64,000 nucleotides of DNA from Cyanobacteria bacterium FACHB-502 (GTDB lineage Bacteria > Cyanobacteriota > Cyanobacteriia > Elainellales > Elainellaceae): NCBI GenBank assembly GCA_014695325.1, contig JACJNZ010000055.1, positions 1 through 64,000 of the forward strand, in the 5' to 3' direction. Within the stretch, counting starts at the first letter, position 1. Each line of letters opens with the position of its first letter. Position numbers and translations under genes: made by a program. Shown here piece by piece: positions 17,193 through 25,699 of this stretch. The notes beneath the pieces are model-generated. The model was not told the DNA's origin. It saw only the letters and a program-made list of their open reading frames with translations, and made no database searches.

Positions 17193-20100
17193 TCAGCCCG
17201 TATTTCGCATTCCAGCGGCGATGCCATTGATCGTGAGCAGTGCGCCGCGCAGCAGTTCGCCCCGACTGTAGCGCGATCGAATCACGCCCGAAGAACTAGA
17301 CTTGTGCTGACGCAGCCGTTTCAGCAGCGATACCTGCAAAAAGCCCAGCGGCACGATCGTACTGTTTCGCAGCTGCACCGATCGCTGCAAATCGGGATCA
17401 CCATCAAGCAGCCGTTTATGTCCGGTGATGATCAGCACTAGATCGCGGGTAAGGTGATACTCACTGGCAATCTGCTCAAACACGCGCTCAAATCGCTCTA
17501 AATCCTCCGGGGGCGAGAGTTCCTGGACGTATTGATGGGCGATCGTCAAATCAACTTTGGAGAGGGTCATTTCGCACTTGGAAATCACCATCTTAAAGAA
17601 GGGCCACTTGTAATAGAAGTAGCGCAACAGCTTCAGGTTTTCTTCGGGTTCTTCTTCCAGGAAGCTTTGAATTGCCGTTCCCACCCCGTACCAGGAGGGC
17701 AGCAGGAATCGGGTTTGCGTCCAGCTAAACACCCAGGGAATTGCTCGCAGCGTCGTCAGGTCTTTTTGCCCACCACTCCGACGCGCCGGACGAGAGCTGA
17801 TTTGAAGCTGGCTGATTTCTTCGATCGGCGTCACGGACAGGAAGAAGTCGAGAAAGTCAGGCTGTTCATAAATCAGCTTGCGGTAGTGGATGCGCGATCG
17901 ATCCGCCAACTCTTCCACAACTTCGCGCCACGGCTCAATGTCATCAAAGCCGCTCTTGAGCAGACTGGCTTGCAGCACGGCAGTGGTCACGGTTTCCAGG
18001 TTGTAGAGTGCTAGTTCCGGCAGATTGTATTTTGATGCCAGCACTTCGCCCTGTTCAGTAATCTTGATGCGTCCGTCAATGCTGCGTCCGGGCTGTGCCA
18101 GAATTGCGTCATAAGCGGGACCACCACCCCGACCTACAGAACCGCCGCGACCGTGGAAGATTCGTAGGGCAACGCCATACTGTTCAGCAATCATTTGAAG
18201 TGCCTGCTGCGCCTTGTGAATTTCCCAATTGCTGCTGAGGAAACCCGAATCTTTGTTACTGTCGGAATAGCCTAGCATCACTTCCTGAAGCGGCTTCACC
18301 GGATTAGACGATTCCGCCTCGCGTCCGGCATAGTCACCTGACAAAGAAGCCCGGTAAAACGGCAGCTCAAACAAACGCTGCATCACTGCCGGGGCACGCT
18401 GAAGATCCTCGACCGTTTCGAACAGCGGTACAACATGAAGCGTTCCGGTTCCCGTTGCAGGATCGTAGAGCCCGGCTTCTTTTGCCAGCAGCAGCACTTC
18501 CAGTAAATCGCTGACGTGATGGCTCATGCTGATGATGTAGGTCTGGCAAATATCAGTGCCAAACTCCTGCTGAAGTCGCCGCACCATCCGCAGCGTTTCG
18601 ATCGTCTCCTTGGTCTTCTCCGAAAAAGGCAGCTCGCTCGGAATTAGCGGACGGCGGGTTTGCAGCTCAGTTGCAAGAAAAATAATCCGCTGGTCTTCGG
18701 GCAAATCACTATAGCCAGTTGGCAGGATTTGTAAGTAGTCAATAATTTCAGTGAGCGTATCCGAGTGGCGATTGCTTTCCTGCCGGATGTCGAGATGGGC
18801 CAGGAAAAAGCCGTAGATTTCCACCTGACAAATCAGATGATCCATCTCGCGGCAGTCTAGCCGGGTTTCCTTCAGGTTGCGCTGGATGAGCTGGAGTTCT
18901 GCCAGAAAGTCTGTGCCCGATCGATAAAAAGTGGTTGGCGTTTCCTCGATCGCTTTTGCCTGGAGATAATCGCTGTTATAAAGCTGCTGACTGCGCTCCA
19001 GCGTGTTTTCCAGCCGCTTTTGAATGTATGCCAGCTTCAGTCGATAGGGTTCCTGGCGAAACTTAATTGCGTGCTGCTCATACACTTCTGGCAACTGAAC
19101 CTGATCCTGCTCTAGCGATTCCAGCAGTTCAGGCAGCACATCACTCCAGTGCAGCGACATACTCAGCAAGTTGATCAGGTTTTTGACGGAGTTGATGTAC
19201 TTCGAGAGCACCAGGTTTCGCTGATAGCAAGCCGTTTTCCAGGTAATCTCTGGTGTGACAGACGGGTTGCCATCGCGATCGGAACCGACCCAGGAGCCAA
19301 ACTTGCAGAAGTTGTACTTCGGCGGACGCAGATCGGGAAACGTGGCTTTGAGCGATCGATTGAAGCGTTGATAAAGCTGCGGAATCGCATCAAACAGCAC
19401 TTCCTGGAAGTAGTGCAGCGCGTAGTCTACCTCGTCCAGCACCGTCGGCTTGAACTGGTGCAGCTCATCCGTCCGCCACCAGAGCCGAATTTCGTCCGTG
19501 AGTCGATCGCGCAAATCCTCGGTTTCCCAGGAAGAAGACAACCCAACCACCTTCAGATTTTCCTCAGCGCGATCGAGCTGCCGCAAAATGTTGGCAATGC
19601 GTCGCTGCTTGTCACGGATCGTGTGGCGCACAATTTCCGTGGGGTGTGCGGTGAAGACCAATCGCACATCAAGGTTGTCAATAATTTGCTGAATCAAGCG
19701 GGGCGGCACGTTGAGGGCACGCAGGCGGGGCAGCAGTCCTTGCAGGGTAACGGCTTCGCGACGTTCTGAAGAATCATGGAGCGTTCTTTCCAGCAGGTCA
19801 GCGTGGAGGTTGCTGCCGTTTGACTCTGCATCTTCGAGCGTTGAAGGAGTTGCGTTAAACACCAGGGATCTGCCCCCAGCTTGCTCGTAGGCAGCTCGAT
19901 ATTGCTGCTGCTGTCCGCGCTGCTCATAGTGCTGCTCAACGATATTAATCAGCTGAAAATAGAGCGCAAACGCACGGGCAGCCCGAATTGCTTCGTTTAA
20001 ATCCAGGGCTTCGATAACCTTTAGCGCAGAGGATTCGATCGCTTCTTGAACGCCTTCTTTTTTCGCGTAAATCAATCGCAGCTGATGCAGCAAATCGACC

Positions 20101-20273
20101 AACTGCTGACCACATTCCTGCTGTAAAACTGCTTCCCACAGATCCTCCACGATCCGCAGTCGATGACGCAAAAATAAATCAGAGGCACTATCAACCGTCA
20201 TATCGTCAAATTCTGCCTCGGTCAGAGTGTTAGAAGGAAAAGCGTCGTCTGAAGGATGCAGGGTGGAGCTCAT
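17193..20273 (-). CDS. ppc: phosphoenolpyruvate carboxylase
   Basis: PEP carboxylase (1026 residues), adding bicarbonate to PEP to give oxaloacetate; in cyanobacteria it feeds amino acid synthesis from 2-oxoglutarate. Catalytic motifs are [13 protein letters not shown] (N-terminal active-site His), [26 protein letters not shown], and the family C-terminus RNTG. Length is usual for cyanobacteria. It is transcribed divergently from the recombinase gene. Confidence 0.98.
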
Positions 20274-20626
20274 AATCTATCCGCGCAAGATCATTTGATA
20301 ATTCTAGGGGTTTTATTCCTGCAAATCCAGATTTTTCGCAGGTTGGCGGGGTAAGACGCAGTTCAAGTTAAGAAGTTCTAACTTTCTTAAGTTTTCTGCT
20401 CGATCGCTTAACGCTCAATCAATTCTTCGAAGGAACAATTTTATGTTGAAGCTTCACAACGCTGTGCTGTACCTAATTTTCTCCAAGCAAAAACTGCTTC
20501 GCATCGCTCTTTTTCCTCCCGATTTTGGCTACTCTATACACGACTCTGTACACAGCATGACTTGTACACAACACGACTTGTACACAGACGCTAAAAGAGC
20601 TTTGTTTTAGTCGATAAAAAGCCACA
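20274..20626. other. divergent intergenic region, ppc / recombinase
   Basis: A 353-base spacer. The ppc-proximal half is AT-rich and shows nothing clear. The recombinase-proximal part contains the TGTACA repeat array. No ORF is convincing. Confidence 0.6.
20535..20590. repeat. TGTACA iteron-like array before the recombinase gene
   Basis: The self-complementary hexamer TGTACA occurs at 20547, 20563 and 20579, exactly 16 bp apart, each followed by CA. A degenerate copy (TATACA) lies at 20535. The 16-bp unit is close to tgtacacaacacgact. The array ends about 37 bases before the recombinase ATG, where an operator would sit. Confidence 0.85.
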
Positions 20627-21976
20627 ATGACCGCTTATTCAAGCATCGACTCTGGAATCGTGCTGGCTTACGCTTACACCGATCCACTCTTTGAGGCAGT
20701 GCCCGATCGAGCGATTTGGGGCAGAACGATCGATCGCATCTATCAGGATTTGGGGGGCGCAAAACAGGCTTCCGCTGAAAGCAATCGACCGCAGCTTCAG
20801 CAGCTTGTGCGCGATTGTCAAACTGAAACGGTCGCTTGTGTGCTGGTGCGTCATCTGGAAGAACTGGGCGACAGTGTAGAAGAGGTGGGCGAGCGCCTAC
20901 GGGAATTTGAGCAGCTTGACATTCCTCTGATTGCGATCGCAGAACCCATTGGATCAGTCGATCAGCCCCTACGTCGATCGGATGTGCTGCATCTGCTGCA
21001 AACGGTTCAGCAAAGCCATGCTAGCCGCAAGCTGAAGCGGGGTCATGCCCAAAATCGCATCAAAACCCTGCCGCCTCCCGGCAAAGCTCCCTACGGCTAT
21101 CGGCGTGGCAAAGACCGCTACACGATCGATCGCAGTACGGCTCCCGTGGTGAAAGATTTCTTTGAGCACTTTTTGCTTTATGGCTCCTTGCGAAGCAGCG
21201 TGCGCTATCTGCAAAAGAAATACGGCAAAAAAATTTCGGCTTCCACGGCAAAACGCTGGCTAACCAGCCCGGTGTATCGCGGCGATCTGCGCTACCACAA
21301 CGGAGAAACGGTGCAGGATACCCACGCGCCCATTTTGTCACGAGACGAAGCGGCTCAGGTCGATCGCCTGCTGCGGCGCAATCGGCGAATGCCTGCTCGC
21401 TCTGCCAGTGCCCCGCGATCACTGTCGGGACTCGTCACCTGTGCCAACTGCGGATCGGCGATGAAAATCAGCCGTGTCAAAGCAACTCGCGCTCACCCGG
21501 AATATCTGTATTTGCGTCCGGTGAACTGTGAACATCAGCCCAAATGCCGCGCCATTCCTTATCAGAAAGTGTTGGAACGCACGATCGATCGCGTTTGTCA
21601 GGATCTCCCTCAGGCAGTAAACACCGCACCCCTTCCCGATATTGACGGTATTCAGCAAGGCATCTCAGGCCAGATCAGTGCCAAACAAGCCATCCTCGAA
21701 CAGTTGCCGTCTCTGGTGCAGCAAGATATTTTGGACTCAGAAACCGCTGACCTTCGCGCCTACAAACTGCGAACCGAAATGGCAAATCTCCAGGTAAAGC
21801 TGGCACAATTGCCTCCAGTGAACCTGAAAACGATCGCTCAAGTGGTTTCAATCCCCCAATTCTGGCTGGATCTATCCGAAGCCGAACGCCGATTTTATTT
21901 CCGGGAGTTTATTCGCGAGATTCAGATTATTCGTGAAGAGAACAATTGGCAGATTAAGCTGGTATTTATTTTTTAG
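20627..21976 (+). CDS. large serine recombinase family protein, catalytic residues apparently lost
   Basis: A 449-residue protein of the resolvase/XisF type. It has an N-terminal resolvase-like domain (about 10-130), a recombinase domain (LPPPGKAPYGYRRGKDRY at about 145; STAKRWLTSPVYRGDL), a zinc ribbon (TCANCGS ... C ... C, about 270-305) and a C-terminal coiled coil. The usual nucleophile region (Y-x-R-V-S) reads AYAYTDP with no serine, and the DRLxR arginine motif reads LEELGDS with acidic residues. This suggests a chromosomal, domesticated DNA-binding protein more than an active recombinase. There is no att site or phage gene nearby. Confidence 0.8.
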   Translation: MTAYSSIDSGIVLAYAYTDPLFEAVPDRAIWGRTIDRIYQDLGGAKQASAESNRPQLQQLVRDCQTETVACVLVRHLEELGDSVEEVGERLREFEQLDIPLIAIAEPIGSVDQPLRRSDVLHLLQTVQQSHASRKLKRGHAQNRIKTLPPPGKAPYGYRRGKDRYTIDRSTAPVVKDFFEHFLLYGSLRSSVRYLQKKYGKKISASTAKRWLTSPVYRGDLRYHNGETVQDTHAPILSRDEAAQVDRLLRRNRRMPARSASAPRSLSGLVTCANCGSAMKISRVKATRAHPEYLYLRPVNCEHQPKCRAIPYQKVLERTIDRVCQDLPQAVNTAPLPDIDGIQQGISGQISAKQAILEQLPSLVQQDILDSETADLRAYKLRTEMANLQVKLAQLPPVNLKTIAQVVSIPQFWLDLSEAERRFYFREFIREIQIIREENNWQIKLVFIF

Positions 21977-22024: not shown

Positions 22025-22696
22025 TCACGGCAAACCATCTTCAATTCGTTTCAGTGCATCTTCTGCTGCCTGTGTATTTGCGGCCTCTTTACTGCCTCCC
22101 CTGCCTTCACCAAAAACTTGCTCTCCGATATACACCCGTGCTCTATACAGGGGTTCATGATCAGTTCCTCCAATTCTTTTCGGAACATATTGAGGCAGCG
22201 TTCCAAATTTGAGCTGGGCTAATTCCTGAAGGCGGCTCTTAGGATGTTTATCTGCTCGACTTGAAAGCACTCTAAACGGCACTCCGTCAAACAGATTGTG
22301 AATATGAGGACGTAGCATTCTGAGCTGTTTTTGGCGATCGAGATAGTAGGCTCCCACAACAGCTTCAAAAGTGCTGCTCAGTAATCTTGCCTTTTGCCGA
22401 CCTGTTTCGCTTTCGCCTTCGCCTAATCGCATTCTGTCAGCTAGACCGATCGCGATGGCAAACTGGGCGAGCTGTGCTTCATCCACCAGGGCAGCCCGAT
22501 AGCGAGTCAGTTCACCCTCTTTCAAGTTTGAAAAACGCTCATACAGATACTCGCCACTTAAAAAGTTGAGAACGGCATCGCCCAGAAACTCCAGCCGCTC
22601 ATTGTCCTGCTCGCCGGGATGTTCGTTGGCATAGGAGTCATGGGTCAGGGCTTGCTGCAAAAGCGTTTCGTCACGGAATCTCAGCAGTGGGTGCAT
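22025..22696 (-). CDS. rnc: ribonuclease III
   Basis: Double-strand-specific endoribonuclease (223 residues) acting in rRNA and mRNA processing. The signature NERLEFLGDAVL carries the catalytic acidic residues; a second acidic site lies in STFEAVVGAYYLD. The C-terminal double-stranded RNA-binding domain starts near 148 (SRLQELAQ) and ends in GGSKEAANTQAAEDAL. The gene is convergent with the recombinase gene. An IS701-type element begins only 48 bp upstream of its ATG. Confidence 0.96.
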   Translation of the reverse strand: MHPLLRFRDETLLQQALTHDSYANEHPGEQDNERLEFLGDAVLNFLSGEYLYERFSNLKEGELTRYRAALVDEAQLAQFAIAIGLADRMRLGEGESETGRQKARLLSSTFEAVVGAYYLDRQKQLRMLRPHIHNLFDGVPFRVLSSRADKHPKSRLQELAQLKFGTLPQYVPKRIGGTDHEPLYRARVYIGEQVFGEGRGGSKEAANTQAAEDALKRIEDGLP

Positions 22697-22744
22697 GGAT
22701 GATTCAAATCTTCAAATAATGACTGCGCCTTCAACAGCATATCC

Positions 22745-24135
22745 CTCTTCCATCATTTACGCAGAGTTAAATAGGATGCGGCGCAGCAGTAAGTCGTGAA
22801 TCACTGGGCAATAAAACTGCTGCACTTGCTCAATTAATCGGGCAAATCCTTGCACCAGACTTGGCAGTTGAAATACACCTAACCAGCGTTTGAGCCGGTT
22901 GAAAGCAATCCACGGTTCAAGTACCAAGCGCAAATTGTTGAGCAGGTTTTTCCATCCCCGTTGCTTGTCCCACCACGGATGTTGAGTAAACACCTGATGC
23001 GACAAGGGACATTCTCGGTTAAATGCATCGGCAAATAGACTGACCATCGTGAAGGCACTCATGACAATCTCCCACCACCGCTCGATCTGCTTGTAGTCGG
23101 TCACTCGAAAGTCTGCCCAACCCAGAGCATCTTTACTCTGCTTGAGTCCATACTCAATCCAAGTTCGAAAGCCATAGTGGTCGCCAATCTCCTTGAGTTT
23201 GATGGCTGGCGCAGCAACCAGGAGAAACGAGGTGGAGTTGTCCGGTAACGTTTGCGGGTCTGTCGTCAATAACCAATATTGCTTGCGACGACGTTTGCCA
23301 TAAATCACCTCTGCCATGTAGCGTGTTTCCCTGGTGCCATTGCTAAAGGTGCGCTCAAAGCATTGCCAAGGCTCTTGATAAACTTCCTCTTCCTGAGGCA
23401 ACCACAACCCATGATTACTGCGAATCGCCAGAATATAGGGCAGTTTCAACTCGTCTAGCACATTCACGAAGTTGACTTTGCTTTCACCGTACAAACTATC
23501 TGCCAGCACCAGTTCAAAGTGAAATCCCATTGCTTGCAATTGTCGAATCATTCGGGCAGCAATTTGCGGTTTGCTTTGATAGTCATCCGTTGCTTTGAGT
23601 CGCTCCTTGGGTTTGTAGACGTCAAAGCTTAACGGTAGGATCATGCCCTGAAATAGCCCGTAAGCAGTGACCGCAACAATTCCATTTTCCTTCTTGCCCA
23701 CGTTGCCAATGTATTGTCGTTTGACGTAATCGGTGTGGTTGCCTTTTTTGCAATCTCCGGTTTCATCAATCAGCAATATCATGCTTTGCTCATTCACCAA
23801 TTCCAGAATCAACTTGAGTCGAGTTTGTCGCAATCGAGCAACCGACCAGGGAGACTTCGTCAACACGTGATGTAAGCCTTGTTCATTGTTTAACCCAACA
23901 ACTTTGGCAATGGCAGGTAAAGTCTTGCGCTTGAGCTCTGAGATCATCCCGACGTGCAGGTATTTGAAGGACTCGAAGCTCCGCACTTCAGGAAATAAGT
24001 CAGCGTACATTTCACAATACTCATCCACAAATCGCAGGGTAGGACGAGCCGCACGGGGGTCAACCATCACTGAGCCAGACCAAGTACATTTACTCTTCCA
24101 GTCTAATTATTCCTTCCGTATATGATGGAAGAGGA
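22745..24135 (-). mobile_element. IS701-family insertion sequence
   Basis: A complete element of about 1.39 kb. Its ends carry a 13-bp perfect inverted repeat: cctcttccatcat at 22746-22758 and atgatggaagagg at 24122-24134. A 4-bp direct repeat ATAT (22741-22744 and 24136-24139) flanks it and may be the target-site duplication. It holds one intact transposase gene. Its right end abuts the left end of an IS630-type element. Confidence 0.85.
22757..24070 (-). CDS. IS701-family transposase
   Basis: DDE transposase of 437 residues, in one intact frame. The first catalytic Asp lies in ILLIDETGDCKKG (about 130), the second in LVLADSLYGE, and the Glu region in WIEYGLKQSKDALGWADFRV. Length and motif order match IS701 transposases common in cyanobacteria. 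The gene fills its element and its stop overlaps the inner edge of the left terminal repeat. It looks functional. Confidence 0.92.
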   Translation of the reverse strand: MMVDPRAARPTLRFVDEYCEMYADLFPEVRSFESFKYLHVGMISELKRKTLPAIAKVVGLNNEQGLHHVLTKSPWSVARLRQTRLKLILELVNEQSMILLIDETGDCKKGNHTDYVKRQYIGNVGKKENGIVAVTAYGLFQGMILPLSFDVYKPKERLKATDDYQSKPQIAARMIRQLQAMGFHFELVLADSLYGESKVNFVNVLDELKLPYILAIRSNHGLWLPQEEEVYQEPWQCFERTFSNGTRETRYMAEVIYGKRRRKQYWLLTTDPQTLPDNSTSFLLVAAPAIKLKEIGDHYGFRTWIEYGLKQSKDALGWADFRVTDYKQIERWWEIVMSAFTMVSLFADAFNRECPLSHQVFTQHPWWDKQRGWKNLLNNLRLVLEPWIAFNRLKRWLGVFQLPSLVQGFARLIEQVQQFYCPVIHDLLLRRILFNSA

Positions 24136-24136
24136 A

Positions 24137-24913
24137 TATAGCAATCGAGGGGTTGGTTAGGACAGGTGTCTAAAGGCATTATCCATCACGACGACTCGCC
24201 CTGGCTTCAACTGCCCGACCAGACATTGCTGTATCCAGGTTTCCACCAAAGCCGTATCACAGTAACCCTTGAAGGTCAGCGGTGCCACCACTTGACGATG
24301 ACACCAAGCAGCAATCATACTGACCCGCTGGGTGCGGTGCCCTAACTTCAATGCCTCAACCCGCTCAGATTGAGCATACCAACGTAGGCATAGTCTTCCG
24401 TGTCATCCCCCCCTGCTTCATCGACGTAAACCAGTTGTTCTGCTGCATACGTTTGCAAATGAGCTAGGAAGGCTTGCTGTTGCGCTTCATCCCGCTCTTG
24501 ATAGCCATCGCTCTTTTTTTACGAGTGAAACCAATCCGCCTGAGGGCCTTGCTGATGGTGTGGTCACTAATCGATTCATGCCACTGCGCTGCCATCCCCT
24601 TCTGGGTCAAATGTCCATGCTCAGAGGCAAAGGTTCGAAATTGCTCCAAATCGGCGATCTTCCCTTGAGGACCCCGTCGGTAAGCGCGAATGGCACTAAC
24701 CGAACCCGTTTCCTCCCGTCGTTTGAGCCATAAGTCGATCGTGTTGCGACTGATGTTAAACAAGCGGCTGACGTGAGTTTTGCAGTATCCGATATCAATG
24801 GCATCGAGCACTTTTTGACGCAGGTCATCGCTGTAGGGACTCGGCATGACAGGAGTGTTGAGTGAGGAGAGATACCTCTATATTCTGTCCTAATCAACCC
24901 CTCGATCGCTATA
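24137..24913 (-). mobile_element. IS630-type element, internally deleted and decayed
   Basis: About 0.78 kb, bounded by nearly perfect terminal inverted repeats of about 28 bp (left tatagcaatcgagggg..., right ...cccctcgatcgctata). IS630/Tc1-type elements insert at TA, and TA lies at both edges. The element is shorter than a full IS630 because the transposase loses its C-terminal third directly before the left repeat. The right end abuts the stop codon of the TIGR03943 gene. Confidence 0.75.
24157..24847 (-). pseudogene. IS630-type transposase remnant
   Basis: The N-terminal helix-turn-helix part is open from 24847 to 24464 (MPSPYSDDLRQKVLDAI ... SRNTIDLWLKRREE). A run of seven A near 24520 could be the usual programmed frameshift, leading into AEQLVYVDEAGG. 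Two further frame breaks are needed after that: one in a G-run near 24408, and one near 24385 before WYAQSERVEALKLGHRTQRVSMIAAW. The frame then ends at MDNAFRHLS, just after the second catalytic Asp, so the final Glu region is missing. It cannot make an active enzyme. Confidence 0.8.
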
Positions 24914-25699
24914 TTAGTAGTCGTAGGGATTTTGCGGTTTAGGAATCGCCTGAAGCCGCTCTGCCTGGATCACAAGCTGCCGCTTATTGTCGATCGTCTC
25001 TGTAATCATCTTGCCCTCTACTCGAAACCACTGATCTGCGGGGTAAGCGGCACGGCTGCCAGCAAGCTTCACAGGCAAACCGACCGGATACACATCCGCA
25101 GCACAGCAGGTAATCACGAAGCGAGAAATCATCAGATAATCATCTGGCAAGCTGGGCAGGTGAATCGCAAATCCATCGACGTTTGCTTTTTGCCCTTTGT
25201 AAGCATCCGGTTCGGGGTACACATTCAGTGTTCGCACCCATTCGATGATCGATCGGTCTTCGGGACGCTTATTGCCGCGAAAGGCTTGGGGCTGCGATCG
25301 GGTCATGCTCAGCGTGTCAGTTACGCCTCGATTAAGAGCAACATCGCTGGCAAACGGCTGGGGCGTAAACTGCAAGCCAAACAGTGCGACAGCTAACAGT
25401 AAGCCGCTACTCCATCCCGGCGGAAACAGGGAAAAGTGAGCGGGCATTGCCGTGGGTCTAAGCCGATTCGAGCGACGCATTCGCCAGAGAAACTGCCCCA
25501 GTTTGTACAGACCCAATCCCACCAGAAAAAATCCGGCAGAATATGCCAGCCAGATATAGCCCGGATGCAGCAGCACGTTAATTTTGCCAGTCAGCCAATA
25601 CTTTAGCAGCAGCGCACCCCAAGCAAGAATTGCCAGCACATCCAGCAGGGGTTGCAGCCAGAGCAAGCGAGGAGCGATCGGCTTTGAACTTAGGGTCAT
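24914..25699 (-). CDS. TIGR03943-family membrane protein (YcgQ-like)
   Basis: A 261-residue protein. Two or three N-terminal hydrophobic helices (about 12-110) precede an extracytoplasmic domain with ISRFVITCCAADVYPVG, typical of TIGR03943. Members pair with a permease of the DUF318/UPF0718 type, encoded here by the next gene upstream on the same strand. The transported ligand is not established. The TAA stop directly abuts the IS630-type element, so the last residues (PKPQNPYDY) may have been altered by insertion. Confidence 0.85.
   Translation of the reverse strand: MTLSSKPIAPRLLWLQPLLDVLAILAWGALLLKYWLTGKINVLLHPGYIWLAYSAGFFLVGLGLYKLGQFLWRMRRSNRLRPTAMPAHFSLFPPGWSSGLLLAVALFGLQFTPQPFASDVALNRGVTDTLSMTRSQPQAFRGNKRPEDRSIIEWVRTLNVYPEPDAYKGQKANVDGFAIHLPSLPDDYLMISRFVITCCAADVYPVGLPVKLAGSRAAYPADQWFRVEGKMITETIDNKRQLVIQAERLQAIPKPQNPYDY

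Follow-up and report, generated by a model that had tools for sequence, protein, structure and literature searches.

A large serine recombinase family without its catalytic residues as a candidate domesticated DNA-binding protein of Cyanobacteriia

What keeps a serine recombinase gene in frame when the residues of its active site have gone? This question is raised by a gene at positions 20627-21976 (+) of the 64,000-nucleotide stretch of Cyanobacteria bacterium FACHB-502 DNA analysed here, which is called the window throughout. A preliminary description had proposed that such a gene has acquired another selected role, as a domesticated DNA-binding protein. Domain searches, family alignments, selection estimates, neighbourhood comparisons and structure prediction were combined to evaluate this proposal.

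Domain architecture and active site

The open reading frame starts with ATG, encodes 449 aa without internal stops, and is present as a single copy in the window genome. Pfam matches of the protein were Resolvase (PF00239, 33 bits, residues 39-138), Recombinase (PF07508, 44 bits), and Zn_ribbon_recom (PF13408, 29 bits). The resolvase match leaves the first 36 profile positions, including the nucleophile, unaligned. A second, weaker PF07508 match of the window genome (G000:C94:8496-8681) lies in a 555-aa frame and possibly represents an intact large serine recombinase (LSR) of a mobile element.

The order of domains is that of LSRs. A degenerate N-terminal resolvase-fold domain (residues 11-110; 20657-20956, +), delimited by AlphaFold2 (AF2) secondary structure, is followed by the aE-RD linker TLPPPGKAPYGY (147-158; 21065-21100, +), the recombinase DNA-binding domain (151-255; 21077-21391, +), a zinc ribbon (266-322; 21422-21592, +) with cysteines 272, 275, 301, and 307, and a helical hairpin or coiled-coil motif predicted by AF2 (339-393; 21641-21805, +). 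ORF, Pfam and AF2 data agree with the earlier statement that recombinase domain, zinc ribbon and coiled coil share one open frame. The AF2 model, computed with 57 sequences from the window and the named loci, reached a pLDDT of 82 and a pTM of 0.65, with moderate confidence for the N-terminal domain. Its best PDB matches in Foldseek were DNA-bound LSRs (YokA, A118, Bxb1, and phiC31). The N-terminal part alone matched the catalytic domains of Sin and TP901-1, with gamma-delta also among the PDB matches of this domain, so that a resolvase fold is indicated by these hits together with the weak Pfam match.

Four intact LSRs from related genomes, carrying motifs such as YARVS and DRLSR and including one above-threshold XisF, served as controls for the catalytic columns. 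In alignment with these, resolvase R8 corresponds to Y17, R68 to E79, and R71 to D82, and S10 to D19, the latter placed by register as MAFFT opens a one-residue gap at that column. The former nucleophile motif reads AYAYTDP (residues 14-20; 20666-20686, +) and the former DRLxR motif LEELGDS (residues 77-83; 20855-20875, +), both as initially described. The loss itself was thus confirmed; it is not peculiar to this genome but ancestral to a cyanobacterial family. Among 169 unique full-length orthologues, Y17 was found in 164, D, E or N at position 19 in 161, D or E at position 79 in 165, and D, E or N at position 82 in 160. These counts indicate a fixed family trait rather than chance or sequencing error. 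The catalytic set R8, S10, R68, and R71 was complete in all four active controls and in none of the 169 members, a single arginine of the set being kept in one sequence. No serine is fixed at either position flanking residue 19, and alignment with active LSRs revealed no catalytic set of serine and arginines displaced to other positions in any member. Other positions of the domain are retained: Y15 is invariant or nearly so, D41 is kept in 169 and R54 in 166 of the 169 members. By alignment we take D41 and R54 to be the probable counterparts of resolvase D36 and R45. Since the lost residues mostly became conserved acidic ones and D41 and R54 stay, the active site is, as judged from the aligned sequences, remodelled rather than decayed.

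Distribution, inheritance and selection

With a permissive cut-off, 49 of 60 relatives carry an orthologue. At an E-value of 1e-30 the family was detected in 231 of 382 Cyanobacteriia genomes of good quality and in 118 of 157 genera. When both searches are pooled, 37 of the class's 45 family codes contain one member or more. In the 382 genomes there was nearly always one match per genome. No member was found in the small picocyanobacteria-like genomes (f2) or in the groups f7, f11, f14, f15, f22, f30, and f33, of which f14, a 4.7 Mb lineage, is presumably Gloeobacter. Because it is absent altogether from the picocyanobacteria-like genomes and several other groups, the gene is not essential to the class. 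The matches included no genome of the same phylum outside Cyanobacteriia, and in phage and plasmid collections no match exceeded about 27% identity. A gene tree of 106 rows largely tracks the family codes, with 20 changes compared to a minimum of 15 and a mean of 60.6 after shuffling; this was a quick tree with long branches, which leaves its deep order unsure. Inheritance of the family hence appears to be mostly vertical and chromosomal.

The dN/dS analysis (Nei-Gojobori, 32 independent pairs) yielded 0.103 for the whole gene, 0.139 for the catalytic domain, 0.049 for the recombinase domain, 0.110 for the zinc ribbon, and 0.109 for the C-terminal part, i.e. purifying selection throughout. Conservation, expressed as mean majority, was highest of all segments in the aE-RD linker (0.90), followed by the recognition helix (0.86) and the RD-ZD linker (0.84), compared to 0.62 in the catalytic domain. 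In the A118 integrase-DNA structure these same three segments touch DNA, the aE-RD linker lying in the minor groove, Tyr295 and Tyr297 contact bases, and zinc is held by four cysteines (PMC3783163). The four zinc cysteines and Tyr293-x-Tyr295 are invariant in our family, and this tyrosine pair, matched by spacing, may be equivalent to the base-contacting pair of A118; all of these contacts were transferred by alignment rather than from superposed coordinates. The catalytic domain, although dead by prediction, is still under selection in most members, and its retention with D41, R54, and Y15 points to a role that goes further than plain DNA binding.

Some lineages, at least two, have discarded this domain completely. 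In G114 and G122 the products comprise about 340 aa and start just before the linker; the preceding gene is petD-like in G114, at a distance of 71 bp, and hemF-like in G122, at 62 bp. The G095 product of about 342 aa is encoded 35 bp after the neighbouring gene; those of G227 and of the likewise truncated G260 are shorter still. Upstream of the genes in G114, G122, G095, and G227 no remnant of the catalytic domain was detected, except that G114 and G122 retain the last part of the connecting helix. The truncated members keep recombinase domain, zinc ribbon and coiled coil in frame and are located beside housekeeping genes. These losses fall into two family codes (f24 and f31), and the genus of G095 also includes a full-length member, G230, which implies at least two losses. 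The sequences thus show the catalytic domain to be dispensable in some lineages.

Genomic setting and known relatives

In the window the gene is flanked by ppc (17193-20273, -) as divergent and rnc, encoding ribonuclease III (22025-22696, -), as convergent neighbour. Both neighbours named in the preliminary description were confirmed. This setting, however, is local to the clade of the window genome: about nine related loci likewise have ppc next to the gene, and elsewhere other neighbours are found. The commonest is a conserved 119-aa VOC/glyoxalase-like gene (PF00903) directly upstream (e.g. L059 5528-5908, L074 5544-5903, and L079 5606-5998). In roughly 43 of 80 named loci the two genes share a strand and are no more than about 200 bp apart; in Planktothrix they overlap by 4 bp. 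The pairing occurs in 12 family codes, whereas the VOC orthologue of the window genome is on a different contig. In other lineages the neighbours, named by eye from their sequences, are nrtA-like, chlL/chlN-like, glgA-like, and petBD-like genes. Two deep-branching families (f5 and f29) have the gene directly before chlL-like and chlN-like genes (L157 5767-10878 and L150 2903-6887). As neighbours differ among lineages, the gene has changed its surroundings while remaining single copy.

In line with the earlier description, att-like flanking repeats are absent, and we found neither an excisable element nor a phage or plasmid orthologue. The repeats near the gene are not att-like: one is inside the gene, one is a distant weak pair, and the others are the ends of two insertion sequences past rnc. 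An IS701-family insertion sequence (22739-24139) just past rnc carries a 437-aa transposase gene and 23-nt terminal inverted repeats. It is abutted by a short element (24135-24915) with 31-nt inverted repeats (94%) and a 127-aa IS630-like transposase fragment.

Rfam gave no match at the locus. Three TGTACAC repeats (TGTAC-type, 16-bp spacing) at about 20547-20586, upstream of the window gene, are absent from relatives, and the regions upstream of the gene and of the VOC gene share only HIP1, A/T-rich and start-codon words and no operator. HIP1 (GCGATCGC) was considered as a target and rejected. The gene is present in families without HIP1 in the sampled stretch (f5, f17, and f21) and missing from the HIP1-rich genomes G045, G058, and G084, and thus there is no tight link between the two.

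The top NCBIfam match is XisF, the recombinase excising the fdxN element (NF041201), which shares the architecture of the window protein and has a similar C-terminal FW..L motif. The score of 137 bits is far below the cut-off of 375, while the XisF control reached 453 bits. In contrast to the window protein this control retains YARVS and DRLSR, and XisF excises an element whereas the window gene is inside none. Resolvase fold, recombinase domain, zinc ribbon and coiled coil are also shared with the large serine integrases that gave the best PDB matches (A118/LI integrase, 4kis; SPbeta YokA, 9dxh). Unlike these, the family lacks the catalytic serine and arginines, is chromosomal and vertically inherited without att sites, and includes members devoid of the catalytic domain. 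Serine recombinase homologues with a predicted lack of activity are already known elsewhere: vaccinia F16 is listed as such (PMC11980589). It was likewise kept after predicted loss of catalysis, a likeness drawn from its description only, and is a poxvirus protein, whereas our family resides on cyanobacterial chromosomes. No earlier description of the family was found in the open-access papers searched; it also goes unmentioned in the surveys among them that treat recombination elements, repair genes or domesticated mobile elements in cyanobacteria.

Functional interpretation and alternatives

The reading we consider likely is an LSR that was domesticated long ago, is catalytically dead, and serves as a sequence-specific DNA-binding protein of the chromosome with mostly vertical inheritance. 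This role, and with it the initial proposal, is supported by purifying selection, by occurrence across the class, by mostly vertical inheritance, and by the lineages in which the entire catalytic domain was lost. An ancient XisF-like LSR was probably captured by a cyanobacterial ancestor, lost strand cleavage, and then descended mostly vertically as a DNA-binding protein. Recombinase domain and zinc ribbon would hold one half of an att-like site. The coiled coil could connect subunits or two sites on DNA, as could the resolvase-fold domain in members that have it, and the complex on DNA might regulate transcription or organise the chromosome. The acidic pocket left by remodelling probably precludes phosphate binding or takes its place. 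A bolder version, which we regard as rather unlikely, is an integrase-derived class-wide chromosome-organising or regulatory protein whose coiled coil bridges conserved att-like sites and whose pocket (D19, D41, E79, and D82) senses a metal ion or metabolite that controls binding.

A narrower form of the domesticated DNA-binding protein would be a transcription regulator of the adjacent VOC gene in a two-gene operon. The frequent close pairing and the Planktothrix overlap speak for it, but the pairing is missing in many lineages, including the window genome, and a common palindromic operator is lacking, which makes this a possible though doubtful function. Since the DNA-recognition half is kept, a dead integrase could in principle also compete with incoming mobile elements for attachment sites and confer superinfection immunity. 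Such a decoy appears improbable: the collections hold no close phage or plasmid integrase, the DNA-binding domain evolves slowly, which would not be expected in an arms race, and no PADLOC model matched, a result by which a known anti-phage defence protein was rejected as well.

A still active recombinase with a displaced nucleophile, e.g. threonine or serine at residue 18, would fit the presence of one of these in most members. Yet this position is variable (also N, H, L, R, A, and Y) and corresponds to Val/Ile in active enzymes, no arginine is left but for the one exception given above, the site is lined by acidic residues, and some members have no catalytic domain at all, so that activity of this kind is very improbable. 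LSRs act as dimers and tetramers, and the protein might accordingly assist an active LSR of its own cell as an accessory subunit. Of 16 genomes tested, however, 14 contain no other PF07508 match, which largely refutes this and renders it exceedingly improbable. Finally, an integrase-type origin and broken gene copies in a few genomes (G342 and G300) are what a decaying pseudogene of a mobile element would leave, but this reading, to which we assign virtually no probability, is refuted by the dN/dS of 0.10 and by a frame that is intact in most genomes throughout the 37 family codes.

The long retention of a mobile-element integrase as a chromosomal protein without catalysis, in most of a bacterial class, would be one of the rare clear examples of domestication, its path traced by natural intermediates in which the dead domain is either kept or deleted. 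For model cyanobacteria the family raises the question which site is recognised by a fixed, selected integrase DNA-binding domain and why it is kept. Some cyanobacterial genes annotated as recombinases would then not be recombinases, which affects counts of mobile elements and genome minimisation.
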